This document shows, piece by piece, positions 4,823 to 8,704 of a stretch of 20,802 nt of DNA. The notes beneath the pieces were generated by a model that searched no databases, had not been told where the DNA came from, and saw only the letters and a program-made list of their open reading frames with translations. Both the position numbers and the translations under genes were made by a program. Positions within the stretch are counted from its first letter, which is position 1; each line of letters starts with the position of its first letter. The DNA comes from a virus, in the IMG/VR virus record IMGVR_UViG_3300048586_000857, positions 1-20,802 of that record; one strand, given 5' to 3'.

Positions 4823-5133
4823 TGAGCGCCTTTGCCGCCGCCGTCGGCGCGCTCTTCGCCGATCCGAACATCGGGCGGGACGCGGTCTACATCGCCGAGG
4901 GCGGCGCGCCGATCCTGGTGCGCGTCGTCGCCCGGCGCGCGGATGCGTCGACCTCCTTCGGCGATGTCCGGCTCTGGTCCGAGACCACCCGGATCGATCT
5001 GCGGGTGGCCGAGGTGCCAGCCCCGCGCCCCGGCGACCGCATCGAGATCGACGGCGATGCCTTCCTGATCCAGGGCGAACCCGTCCGCGACCGCGCGCGG
5101 CTTGTCTGGACCCTGGATCTGAGTCCCGCGTGA
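4822..5133 (+). CDS. Head-tail joining protein (lambda FII-like)
   Basis: This 103-residue protein begins MSAFAAAVGALFADPNIGRDAVY. The pattern of a short N-terminal helix with F..DPN.G.DA, followed by compact beta strands and the motif RPGDRIEIDGDAFLIQGEPVRD, is typical of small head-tail connector proteins of the lambda FII type that bind the portal and form the surface onto which the tail docks. Position agrees: decoration protein upstream, tail-completion type protein downstream. It starts by one-base overlap with the DUF2190 gene and ends overlapping the GTG of the next gene by 4 bases. Homology to FII is judged from size, position and motif spacing, so the family assignment is less certain than the role. 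Confidence 0.68.
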   Translation: MSAFAAAVGALFADPNIGRDAVYIAEGGAPILVRVVARRADASTSFGDVRLWSETTRIDLRVAEVPAPRPGDRIEIDGDAFLIQGEPVRDRARLVWTLDLSPA

Positions 5134-5762
5134 AACTGAAACTTGCCATCGATCCCGACATCGTCGCGCTGATGGCGGCCGAGGTTGCGGCCGGGGAACG
5201 CGCCGTCACCGCCGCCATGCGCGAGGCGGGCACCGGCCTGAAATCCGCCTGGCGCACCCAGATCACCGGCGCGGGGCTGGGCACGCGGCTTGCCAACTCG
5301 ATCCGCTCCGCCAGCTTTCCGAAGGCGGGGCAGAGCCTGAACGCGGCGGCACTGGTCTGGTCCAACGCCCCGGTCATCATCGGCGCGCATGACACGGGGC
5401 CGCTTATCCGCTCGAAGAACGGGTTCTGGCTGGCGATCCCCACGCCAGCAGCAGGAAAGTCCACGCGCGGCGGCAGGATCACCCCCGGCGAATGGGAAAG
5501 GCGCACCGGCTTACGCCTGCGGTTCATTTATCGCCGCAGAGGTCCGAGCCTGCTTGTGGCGGAGGGGCGGTTGAATACCAAGGGTCGCGCCGTGGCGTCC
5601 CGATCGAAAACCGGCCGGGGCGTCATTACCGCGCCAATTTTCCTGCTGGTACCGCAAGTCAAGCTGCCGAAGCGGCTGGATCTAGCGCGGGATGCCGAGC
5701 GGGCGCACGAGGCGGTGCCAGGGCTGATCGTGGCGAACTGGGTGGAGGGCAAGTTGCCGTAA
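5130..5762 (+). CDS. DUF6441 family protein, probable tail-completion protein (lambda gene Z position)
   Basis: This 210-residue soluble protein starts at GTG 5130, overlapping the previous stop in a GTGA junction. The sequence MKLKLAIDPDIVALMAAEV, the middle LGTRLANSIRSASFP and APVIIGAHDTGPLIRSKNGFWLAIPTP match what I recall of DUF6441 proteins from Rhodobacterales prophages. The C-terminal half is basic and contains APIFLLVPQVKLPKRLDL. In lambda the gene between FII and U is Z (192 residues), needed to complete the tail before joining; the size and slot here are alike, so a neck or tail-completion role is inferred. No biochemical function is established for the family as far as I know. It is the last forward gene before the inserted exporter; only seven bases separate the two convergent stop codons. 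Confidence 0.72.
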   Translation: MKLKLAIDPDIVALMAAEVAAGERAVTAAMREAGTGLKSAWRTQITGAGLGTRLANSIRSASFPKAGQSLNAAALVWSNAPVIIGAHDTGPLIRSKNGFWLAIPTPAAGKSTRGGRITPGEWERRTGLRLRFIYRRRGPSLLVAEGRLNTKGRAVASRSKTGRGVITAPIFLLVPQVKLPKRLDLARDAERAHEAVPGLIVANWVEGKLP

Positions 5763-5769
5763 AGTCGGC

Positions 5770-6576
5770 CTAACGGTGCCGCCAAACCTTCACGGCGGAA
5801 ATCAAAAGAATGGCGGCGAGAGCAGGCAACAGGATCGTGCTGGGAACGATCCCGAGCAGCGATCCACCGATGAACGTGCCAACCACCGACCCTGCCGCCA
5901 TGGTGAACAGAAAGGTCCGGTTACGGCCCAGAACGGCAAAACTCTGATCCTGGCTGTATCGCGCAAAGCCCACCAGCATTGTCGGCAGGCTGACCGCGAG
6001 AGAAAGCGATCCGGCCAGCTTGATATCGGCACCGAAGAGCAGGACCAGCGTCGGGATCAGCAATTCGCCCCCGGCAACGCCCATCAACGACGCAACGACC
6101 CCGATGCCGAAGCCCGCAATGACCCCTGCTATCATTTGGAGTGTTCCGACAAGCAGACTGCCCGTGGTTGCCGTTTCATGGCCGAACAGCAGGATGACAG
6201 CGATCATGACCAGCAGGGCCGCGAGAACTTTGTAGAGTGTCTCCGATTTCAGGCGCGTCGCCCAACCGGCCCCGAACCAGGCCCCCGCCAGACTGCCTGC
6301 CAGCAGGTTCACAATGATTAGCCAGTGGGTGGCAATTTCACCGAAAGGGACAGTTCCAGCCCTGAATGGCAGAGCGGTCGCCACCACGACAAGGCTCATC
6401 GCCTTGTTGAGGATCACCGCCTCAAGGGCCGCAAACCTGAAGATGCCGACCAGAAGCGGCAGCCTGAACTCCGCCCCTCCAAGGCCGATCATGCCGCCAA
6501 GAGTGCCAATGATCGCCCCGGCGCCAAAAGCGGCGGGCAGGTTGCGTTCTGTCGGGGCGGGGTCGATTTTTCTCAC
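5770..6576 (-). CDS. TauE/SafE family anion exporter, cargo gene on the opposite strand inside the phage operon
   Basis: This 268-residue integral membrane protein has the two-fold repeat typical of TauE/SafE (DUF81) permeases: GTLGGMIGLGGAEFRLP at residues 24-40 and GVVASLMGVAGGELLIP at 159-175, each followed by hydrophobic segments, giving about seven or eight helices in all. Members move sulfite, sulfoacetate or other organosulfur anions across the inner membrane; the substrate here cannot be told. Length is normal for a complete member. The start is taken as GTG 6576 (MRKIDPAPTERN); no good Shine-Dalgarno is seen. It lies antisense between the DUF6441 gene and the tail-terminator gene, interrupting an otherwise forward late operon, and looks less GC-rich than its neighbours. 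That is the arrangement of a 'moron' expressed from the prophage independently of late genes. No clear terminator separates it from the convergent phage gene. Confidence 0.9.
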   Translation of the reverse strand: MRKIDPAPTERNLPAAFGAGAIIGTLGGMIGLGGAEFRLPLLVGIFRFAALEAVILNKAMSLVVVATALPFRAGTVPFGEIATHWLIIVNLLAGSLAGAWFGAGWATRLKSETLYKVLAALLVMIAVILLFGHETATTGSLLVGTLQMIAGVIAGFGIGVVASLMGVAGGELLIPTLVLLFGADIKLAGSLSLAVSLPTMLVGFARYSQDQSFAVLGRNRTFLFTMAAGSVVGTFIGGSLLGIVPSTILLPALAAILLISAVKVWRHR

Positions 6577-6653
6577 GGCGAATATCTACGACGGAACACT
6601 TCGCAGATGCCAGTATTAACAAGCGTTTGACGCCATCAAGAGGCCAAACCGTC

Positions 6654-7073
6654 ATGCCCACCCCCCGCGAAACCATCCTCGCCGCGCTGCACGCGCGGCT
6701 TTCGGCCTTGCCCGCAACCGCCCTGCGCGGTGAGGTGCTGCCCGAACGCGTGCCCGCTGCGGGGCTTCTGATCCTGCGCGACGGTGAGCCGGGCGAGCCC
6801 GAGGTCACGCTGTCGCCCTTGCGCTACCACTACCAGCACCGGGCCGAAATCGAGGCGGTCGTTCAGGGTGCGGCCCGTGACACCGCCTTCGACACAATGG
6901 CTGCAAGCATCGGAGCGGCGATTGCGGCCGACCGAACGCTGGGCGGCCTCTGCGACTGGATCGAGGCGGAAGCACCGCGTCCGGTCGATCTGGCCGTCGA
7001 GGGTGCCGCCAGCCTGAAGGCGGCGGTGATCCCGGTCATCCTGCACTATTCCACGGCCGATCCACTGGCCTGA
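6654..7073 (+). CDS. Tail terminator / minor tail protein U-like
   Basis: This 139-residue protein begins MPTPRETILAALHARLSALP. It then has GEVLPERVPAAGLLILRDGEPGEPEV, a segment with YHYQHRAEIEAVVQG, and ends in LKAAVIPVILHYSTADPLA. A helix followed by alternating strands and the terminal strand pattern is that of tail terminator proteins (lambda gpU type) that cap the tail tube and set its end. Position, immediately before the tube gene, supports this. ATG 6654 was chosen because AAGAGG at 6638-6643 lies 10 bases upstream; a TTG at 6627 is also in frame but lacks a good site. Without the exporter insertion this gene would follow the DUF6441 gene, as U follows Z in lambda. Confidence 0.74.
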   Translation: MPTPRETILAALHARLSALPATALRGEVLPERVPAAGLLILRDGEPGEPEVTLSPLRYHYQHRAEIEAVVQGAARDTAFDTMAASIGAAIAADRTLGGLCDWIEAEAPRPVDLAVEGAASLKAAVIPVILHYSTADPLA

Positions 7074-7097
7074 CCCCAATCACGATAGGAGAATACG

Positions 7098-8036
7098 ATG
7101 GCACGAGCCCATGGGGCGCGGGCGCAGATGGCGCTTGCGTTCGAATCCGTCTATGGCACCGCGCCCGCCACGGGCTACCGCACGGTGCCGTTTGCCAGCA
7201 CCACGCTTGGGTCAGAGCAACCGCTTATCGCCTCGGAACTGCTGGGCCAGGGGCGCGACCCGCTGGCCCCGATCAAGGATGCGGTCACCGCCGACGGCGA
7301 TGTCGTGGTGCCGATCGACGTCGAGAACCTTGGGCTGTGGCTGAAGGCGGCGTTCGGCGCGCCCGTTACCTCCGGCACGACACCCAAGACCCACACCTTC
7401 CAGTCTGGCAACTGGACGCTGCCGAGCATGGCCATCGAGACGGCGATGCCCGAGGTGCCGCGCTATGCGATGTACACCGGCTGCGTCTGCGACCAGCTGT
7501 CGTGGCAGATGGCGCGGTCGGGGCTTCTGACCGCTACCGCAAGGCTGGTGGCGCAAGGCGAAAGCGTGGCGGCGACCACAGCCGCAGGCACGCCCACCGC
7601 GCTGGCATTGCAGCGGTTCGGGCATTTCAACGGGGCGATCACGCGGAACGGATCGCCCCTTGGCAACGTCATTTCCGCCGAGGTGACCTATTCCAATGGC
7701 CTCGATAGGATCGAGACCATCCGTTCGGACGGCCGCATCGAAGGGGCAGACCCCGGCATGGCCGCGCTGACCGGTCGGGTCGAGGTCCGTTTCGCCGACA
7801 CCACGCTGATCACGCAGGCCATCGACGGCACGCCTTGCGAGTTGGTCTTCGCCTGGATCCTCGGTGCCAACGCCAGCTTCACCTTCACCGCACATGCCGT
7901 CTACCTGCCGCGCCCCCGGATCGAGATCCCGGGCCCGCAAGGCATCCAGGCCACCTTCGACTGGCAGGCCGCCAAGGCCGTCAGCCCCGCCCGCATGTGC
8001 ACCGCCGTCCTCGTCAACACTGTTGTGAGTTATTGA
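7098..8036 (+). CDS. Major tail tube protein
   Basis: This 312-residue protein begins MARAHGARAQMALAFESVYG, followed by GYRTVPFASTTLG and ELLGQGRDPLAP. These are characteristic openings of phage tail tube proteins of the Rhodobacterales type, in which a lambda gpV-like tube fold is preceded by the consensus 'Q.ALAFESVYGT'. Repeated strands such as ISAEVTYSNGLDRIETI and LTGRVEVRFADTTLI would form the ring beta barrel, and the C terminus contains IEIPGPQGIQATFDWQAAK. AGGAG at 7087-7091, 6 bases before ATG 7098, is a strong initiation signal as expected for an abundant protein. It lies between tail terminator and tail chaperone, matching the lambda U-V-G order. Confidence 0.88.
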   Translation: MARAHGARAQMALAFESVYGTAPATGYRTVPFASTTLGSEQPLIASELLGQGRDPLAPIKDAVTADGDVVVPIDVENLGLWLKAAFGAPVTSGTTPKTHTFQSGNWTLPSMAIETAMPEVPRYAMYTGCVCDQLSWQMARSGLLTATARLVAQGESVAATTAAGTPTALALQRFGHFNGAITRNGSPLGNVISAEVTYSNGLDRIETIRSDGRIEGADPGMAALTGRVEVRFADTTLITQAIDGTPCELVFAWILGANASFTFTAHAVYLPRPRIEIPGPQGIQATFDWQAAKAVSPARMCTAVLVNTVVSY

Positions 8037-8039
8037 GCC

Positions 8040-8477
8040 ATGATCAGACTGAACCTGACTGCAGCCCCTCTTTGGCTGACCCTCGCCCCCGGCCTGCGCC
8101 TGCAGGTCGCGCCGCTGACCACCGCCCTGATGGTCTCGGCGCGTGCCGATCCGGTCCTCGAAGCCCTGCCGGACACCGCGACCCAAGAGGAACTGGCGCT
8201 CGCCATGGCAAAGGCCGTGGCCCGCCGCGCGGTCCTAGATTGGGAGGGGGTCGGCGACGACGCGGGCGATGCCGTGCAGGTCTCGCCCGAAGGCATCGAT
8301 GCCCTGCTGGAAATCTGGCCGGTCTTCGAAGCCTTCCAGACCCAATACGTCGCCAAGGGTCTGATCCTGGACGCGGAAGAAAACGTCTCCGCGCCCTTGC
8401 CGAATGGTCCTTCGGCGGGGGCGACCGCTACTGCGCGGCCTGCGCGGGGCGCTGCCCCGATTGCCCCGCAAGACTGA
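8040..8477 (+). CDS. Tail assembly chaperone (lambda gpG-like), zero-frame product
   Basis: This 145-residue protein starts 3 bases after the tube stop. The N-terminal APLWLTLAPGLRLQVAPLTTALM and the helical core KAVARRAVLDWEGVGDDAGDAV and VSPEGIDALLEIWPVFEAFQTQYV are those of alphaproteobacterial tail assembly chaperones, which hold the tape measure protein soluble before tube polymerisation. The last 35 residues are Ala/Pro/Thr-rich and look unstructured. That stretch coincides with a second, -1 reading frame that carries the downstream chaperone extension (see next entry), as in the lambda G/GT pair. Its place between tube and tape measure is invariant in siphoviruses and fixes the role. 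Confidence 0.85.
   Translation: MIRLNLTAAPLWLTLAPGLRLQVAPLTTALMVSARADPVLEALPDTATQEELALAMAKAVARRAVLDWEGVGDDAGDAVQVSPEGIDALLEIWPVFEAFQTQYVAKGLILDAEENVSAPLPNGPSAGATATARPARGAAPIAPQD
8376..8423 (+). other. Probable -1 ribosomal frameshift zone in the tail chaperone gene
   Basis: The chaperone frame and the -1 extension are both open across this zone. Possible slip points are GAA-GAA-AAC at 8376-8384, where A-site pairing is kept after a -1 move, and GCG-GGG-GCG at 8415-8423, where five consecutive G at 8417-8421 allow perfect P-site re-pairing. Neither is a perfect X-XXY-YYZ heptamer, so the exact site is not determined. The zone is inferred from frame logic and from the known conserved frameshift in siphovirus tail chaperones. 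Confidence 0.45.
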
Positions 8478-8704
8478 ACCGGCCGCAGACGGAAGATGGC
8501 TGGCAGGTCTGGGACCTGGTTGGCCGCCTAGGTGGGCAATTGCGCGTGATCCCCGGCGCGGTGCTGGGCTGGGACATGGGCGCGGCCCTCGCCATGGCGC
8601 AGGCCCTTGGGATCGACACCCTCATCGCCGCCGAACTGCTGCCCGAGATCGAGGCGGTGATGGTGCGCAAGCTCAACGAACAGATCGGAGAGGGACATGG
8701 CTGA
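8384..8704 (+). CDS. Tail chaperone extension (gpT-like part of a G-T fusion) reached by probable -1 frameshift
   Basis: A second frame, -1 relative to the chaperone, encodes about 105 residues ending at 8704. It contains a tetracysteine knuckle C-x2-C-x3-C-x2-C (DRYCAACAGRCPDCPARL), then EDGWQVWDLVGRLGGQLRV, GWDMGAALAMAQALGID and a C-terminal helix EIEAVMVRKLNEQIG. I see no ATG, GTG or TTG between about 8340 and 8539 in this frame; upstream of that it reads as Arg-rich nonsense with only a TTG at 8240. The tetracysteine part can therefore hardly be translated except by slipping back one base from the chaperone gene, as in lambda GT. The left boundary given is only the start of the overlap I consider coding. 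The 3' end overlaps the tape measure start by 8 bases. The fused extension would recruit the tape measure; the cysteine cluster suggests zinc binding. Confidence 0.68.
   Translation, partial: RLRALAEWSFGGGDRYCAACAGRCPDCPARLNRPQTEDGWQVWDLVGRLGGQLRVIPGAVLGWDMGAALAMAQALGIDTLIAAELLPEIEAVMVRKLNEQIGEGHG

Follow-up and report, generated by a model that had tools for sequence, protein, structure and literature searches.

P2-like prophages and P4-like satellites carry diversity hotspots, loci of 1-5 kb with defence genes and a high turnover (Rousset et al. 2022, PMC9122126). The site described here, the junction between the genes in the lambda Z and U positions of a Rhodobacteraceae prophage family, resembles them in that both are small high-turnover loci between two conserved phage genes and both contain known or, here, candidate defence genes. 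However, the Z-U junction lies inside a late morphogenesis operon of siphovirus type, its flanking genes overlap when it is empty, and its cargo, for the most part antisense, has a large share of genes for metabolism and transport. The morons of lambdoid phages and the plasticity regions of Pseudomonas Mu-like phages (PMC4378225) are likewise single genes of deviant base composition that are probably self-expressed; these occupy several sites with few genes each, whereas the Z-U junction is one site, more than 90% filled, with about 120 unrelated groups of cargo. In Salmonella prophages, accessory loci are located antisense to lytic genes, and one of them was shown by RNA-seq to have a promoter of its own that is active during lysogeny (PMC7067206). 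The Z-U cargo shares the antisense placement, and its expression in the lysogen is predicted. The Rhodobacter capsulatus phages RcKemmy, RcHotPocket, and RcOceanus (PMC8601537) have the same gene order as the DNA analyzed here (portal, fused protease-capsid, attachment, DUF6441, terminator position, and tube); in these phages, in contrast, the Z-U junction is empty, with an overlap of 4 bp. A search of the open-access literature found no description of a Z-U cargo site, and a published survey of Rhodobacteraceae prophages mentions neither morons nor hotspots.

The TauE/SafE gene and the borders of the insert

The stretch of DNA analyzed (the window) is a virus record of 20.8 kb with a head and tail operon, comprising genes for a lambda-type portal, fused protease-capsid, decoration, attachment, DUF6441, tail terminator, tube, chaperone, and tape measure proteins. 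The DUF6441 gene (5130-5762, plus strand; PF20039, E 4.5e-45; phrog_6367, E 1.4e-82), annotated as 'minor tail protein' in Rhodobacter phages, occupies the lambda Z position and forms the left border of the insert. The right border is the tail terminator gene in the U position (6654-7073, plus strand; phrog_4204, E 1.1e-43). We placed the start of this gene at the ATG at 6654, and not at the upstream TTG given in the mechanical list of ORFs, because relatives conserve ATGCCCACC. The insert extends from the Z stop codon to the U start codon (5763-6653), has a GC content of 0.60 compared to 0.70 in its flanks, and is missing from empty alleles, in which Z and U overlap as ATGA.

The insert carries a gene for a TauE/SafE-family permease (5770-6576, minus strand, antisense to the late operon), with a GTG start and 268 encoded amino acids. 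The match to PF01925 (E 8.9e-26) reaches 91.4 bits, where the curated cut-off is 32.6, and covers positions 2-236 of the 237 in the profile. The stop codons of this gene and the DUF6441 gene converge, with 7 bases between them (5763-5769); on the other side, a region of 77 bp (6577-6653) has to leave room for a minus-strand promoter of the cargo as well as a plus-strand ribosome site for U. In an AlphaFold2 model (pLDDT 83, pTM 0.81) the protein has two matching six-helix halves, residues 13-131 and 145-266, and both half-repeats are therefore predicted to be intact. Eighty chromosomal homologues share 66-81% identity with the protein, so that the frame is not a chance ORF. The initial annotation, which had described a complete minus-strand permease with both half-repeats between the Z and U positions and a gap of 7 bp, was right in every particular that could be checked: the ORF, the profile match, and the gap confirm the gene and its placement, and the predicted model bears out the two halves. 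The protein had no match among 50,697 cultured-phage records, in PADLOC, or in NCBIfam, and no sequence match among solved structures. A fold search returned nothing at E 0.001, and its sole high-probability alignments were to BacA (TM 0.61).

Another record, L002, is 100% identical to the window from 6033 to 7078, that is, from inside the TauE gene until the terminator gene ends; beyond this point identity falls to about 87%. This drop marks an apparent recombination breakpoint between the two phages (7074-7098). The same record bears on the concern, raised in the initial annotation, that 5763-6653 might reflect a misassembled host contig. The window comes from a single virus record; however, the U-side junction recurs identically in this second, separate record, and analogous inserts are present in long chromosomal contigs. 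We therefore reject misassembly, to which we assign next to no probability; L002 itself may be a chimeric assembly.

A GATGTCTGCTATGCGGACGAAGC-like motif directly follows the Z stop codon in several unrelated cargoes, e.g., those of L045, L137, and L157; it may stem from intergenic DNA of the host or mark a site of recombination. A site-specific recombinase acting at the junction was considered, but inspection by eye found that, apart from the coding ends of Z and U, the borders of the cargoes have no sequence shared by all.

The Z-U junction in related phages and prophages

Scans with the flanking genes yielded 153 viral loci, from which we obtained 114 distinct intervals with both genes, the window included. 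All except one, with 8 bp, were filled (113/114), with 0.4-3.2 kb. In an intergenic survey of viral contigs, all but one of 111 contigs (110/111) had more than 250 bp between Z and U, compared to 0-5 cases at most other junctions. An exception was the junction between chaperone and tape measure (8477-8697 in the window), a second, weaker variable site where 19 of 80 relatives had a gap of that size.

The DUF6441 gene is carried by 104 of 395 Rhodobacteraceae genomes, which makes the Rhodobacterales host proposed in the initial annotation plausible. Pairing the flanking genes by coordinate gave 126 Z-U junctions in 71 Rhodobacteraceae genomes; 117 of these were filled (317-5418 bp) and nine were empty (5-11 bp). 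Insert sizes range from 0.3 to 5.4 kb over the viral and host-genome samples, which partly overlap, a few contig and genome junctions being identical. The genome of Paracoccus shanxieyensis contains four copies of the module with four different insert sizes. Another Rhodobacteraceae genome, G396, has seven DUF6441 genes and 13 terminator genes, and its empty junctions number five. In empty alleles, Z and U form an ATGA overlap, as they do in all five of the cultured phage records inspected, whose junctions are empty as well; we take this overlap to be the ancestral state. The phage records L239 and L243, whose names give Synechococcus and Nostoc as hosts, carry this head-tail module of alphaproteobacterial type, with a DUF6441 protein of 57% identity; the hosts stated for these records may be wrong.

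A TauE gene of the type found in the window occurs at the Z-U junction only in the window and in its sister contig L002. The comparison of relatives proposed in the initial annotation thus found other inserts at this junction or none; the exporter is not universally fixed in the phage family, as that annotation had considered it might be. Together with the deviant GC content, the empty or differently filled junctions of relatives uphold its view of the TauE gene as an inserted accessory gene, or moron. One further TauE gene was found at the junction, in L040 (PF01925, E 2e-27); it belongs to another branch of the family and was missed by a single-sequence search with the window protein, which indicates an independent uptake.

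Relatives of TauE are encoded in 17 viral loci at varied positions in the genome, the names of these placements coming partly from our own reading of the ORFs. In L406, L408, and L409, they are located near the terminase, beside DUF3489 and DUF7220 genes and upstream of a terminase-like region; others follow the endolysin (L004) or are found in the head module (L005) or near the integrase (L003). The portal of L409 is 86% identical to that of the window. L413-L416 come from distant relatives of the window phage, with a tube protein of 46% identity; their TauE gene (42% identical) is antisense as well, lies in the space from tube to chaperone, and adjoins a ModE-like regulator. Four phage TauE proteins, placed in one tree with 79 chromosomal relatives, required four changes, i.e., separate uptake; the resolution of this tree is poor around the window protein, and its bootstrap had not settled. 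Genes of the window phage were absent from the surroundings of the chromosomal TauE loci, a tail-fibre fragment in L166 excepted. A tblastx comparison of L003-L005 with the chromosomal loci returned short matches of low identity only and thus gave no sign that the chromosomal TauE genes belong to the same prophages.

Content, orientation, and probable exchange of the cargo

With cargo ORFs chosen mechanically by length and codon-position GC, the cargoes of the 226 filled junctions with a called ORF formed 122 groups that show no similarity to one another; 90 groups were seen once. A filled junction typically contains a single accessory gene or a few. Pfam matches include toxin-antitoxin proteins (ParE, YhaV/PrlF, HipA, Gp49 and HTH), AbiGi, Abi_C, HEPN, NYN, Schlafen-type, and HNH domains, and GNAT acetyltransferases, MFS, SBP56, QueC, dehydrogenase, globin, and methyltransferase proteins. 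Transporters for metals and oxyanions are represented by a chromate transporter (L379), MgtC, cation efflux, an ACR3-related SBF protein, and the second TauE. The PADLOC matches (RmrA, QueC, CapH/CapP, and several candidate families) are to single proteins and not to complete systems. Some matches to PADLOC and to Abi and toxin-antitoxin families are mixed with many transport and metabolic genes. In every one of the 117 filled host-genome junctions, the GC content of the insert is below that of its flanks. The site is a general cargo port, which the initial annotation had missed, and TauE is therefore one payload among about 120. Three host genomes (L378-L380) share a 2.4-kb antisense insert of near-equal length, 92.5% identical between L379 and L380, which suggests a spreading resistance cassette.

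The main cargo gene is antisense in 86 of the 122 groups (86:36 by group; binomial p 7e-6); because the ORFs were chosen mechanically, individual orientations may be wrong. In the window, no strong sigma-70 promoter or terminator was found at the TauE gene above chance. Across 101 junctions, the best promoter-like match (of 12) scored 7.48 in the direction of the cargo, 7.00 on the opposite strand, and 7.24 in shuffled sequences. Single-gene cargoes have a median free space of 76-97 bp on the 5' side, compared to about 40 bp on the 3' side. The roomier 5' side and the slight promoter enrichment fit a cargo that would have its own promoter and be expressed during lysogeny, when the late operon is silent. 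Lying antisense would stop transcripts of the cargo from entering the tail genes and would also keep late transcription from expressing the cargo. A further reading is that the port is selected for orientation, so that antisense cargo is expressed in the lysogen and hinders leaky transcription of the late operon. We regard this as unlikely; if true, any passenger, TauE included, would help to silence the tail genes while providing its own trait.

The cargo is not linked to the identity of the flanks: at any flank identity up to 90%, only 1-2% of pairs have cargo in common. Cargo DNA that two junctions share at full length has a higher identity than both flanks in 117 of 181 pairs, and its orientation is always equal. 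Phages or prophages that meet would swap cassettes through homologous recombination in the conserved flanking genes, and the block of TauE and U shared by the window and L002 has the pattern that such an exchange would leave. Such exchange would concern cargo already present in a port and not the first entry of a new one. In having conserved genes on both sides and a high cargo turnover, the site fits the definition of a prophage diversity hotspot in PMC9122126.

Possible roles of the TauE protein and of the port

At the membrane, the TauE protein would export a small anion, to the benefit of the lysogen. In 18 of the 80 chromosomal TauE loci, ArsH, ACR3, ArsK, or ArsC is encoded within 3.5 kb, compared to 3 of 80 with such genes beyond 6 kb, similar lengths having been searched and the gene names confirmed with NCBIfam. 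The commonest immediate neighbours of the chromosomal relatives are cation efflux, MFS, ArsR-type HTH, and FMN reductase genes, and no sulfonate or sulfite genes were found among the common neighbours. Because the relatives adjoin ars, ArsR-type, and cation-efflux genes and sulfur appears only in the family name, we favour, with low confidence, a role in stress from metalloids or other oxyanions over one in taurine or sulfite metabolism. The linkage to ars genes counts against a metalloid role insofar as it is found in a minority of the chromosomal relatives and is absent in the nearest Rhodobacterales relatives, which have neither metal nor sulfur neighbours.

The initial annotation had read the same moron as an exporter of sulfite or organosulfur anions, of help to lysogens that break down sulfonates or gain from oxidising sulfur. 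The SBP56 family, found among the other cargoes of the port, includes methanethiol oxidases. The TauE/SafE Pfam family also includes the sulfite exporter TauE of Cupriavidus necator (cited in PMC10413263); the family is common to both proteins, whereas the genomic context of the relatives of the window protein differs. Given that context, a sulfur substrate is an unlikely alternative, and sulfur export as a demonstrated function, taken from the family name alone, is rejected. We consider it distinctly improbable that TauE guards the lysogen or the resident phage against other phages, e.g., by barring their way in at the membrane: the port is also home to abortive infection and toxin-antitoxin genes, and unrelated phages acquired TauE repeatedly, but the protein lacks a PADLOC match, and its close chromosomal homologues look like ordinary transporters, some of them beside ars or efflux genes. 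The extreme diversity of the cargo, with some small inserts having no clear ORF, might also reflect passenger DNA without benefit, in a port that accepts any insert, for instance because extra DNA tunes the packaging length. Most cargo ORFs, however, are intact and many can be assigned to known families, the orientation of the cargo is biased, and both halves of TauE are intact; the chance that this explanation holds is slight.

The reading of TauE as a moron is supported, and as a kind it is ordinary. The whole explanation that we prefer, a TauE moron at a port dedicated to cargo, in a prophage family that is widespread among Rhodobacteraceae, is probably correct. The port is one fixed address for about 120 unrelated groups of passengers, in prophages of about one quarter of the sampled Rhodobacteraceae genomes. 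It makes testable how adjacent structural genes that ancestrally overlapped stay working while the DNA between them changes, and it provides a ready list of candidate genes for lysogenic conversion and defence against phages, many of them without known function.
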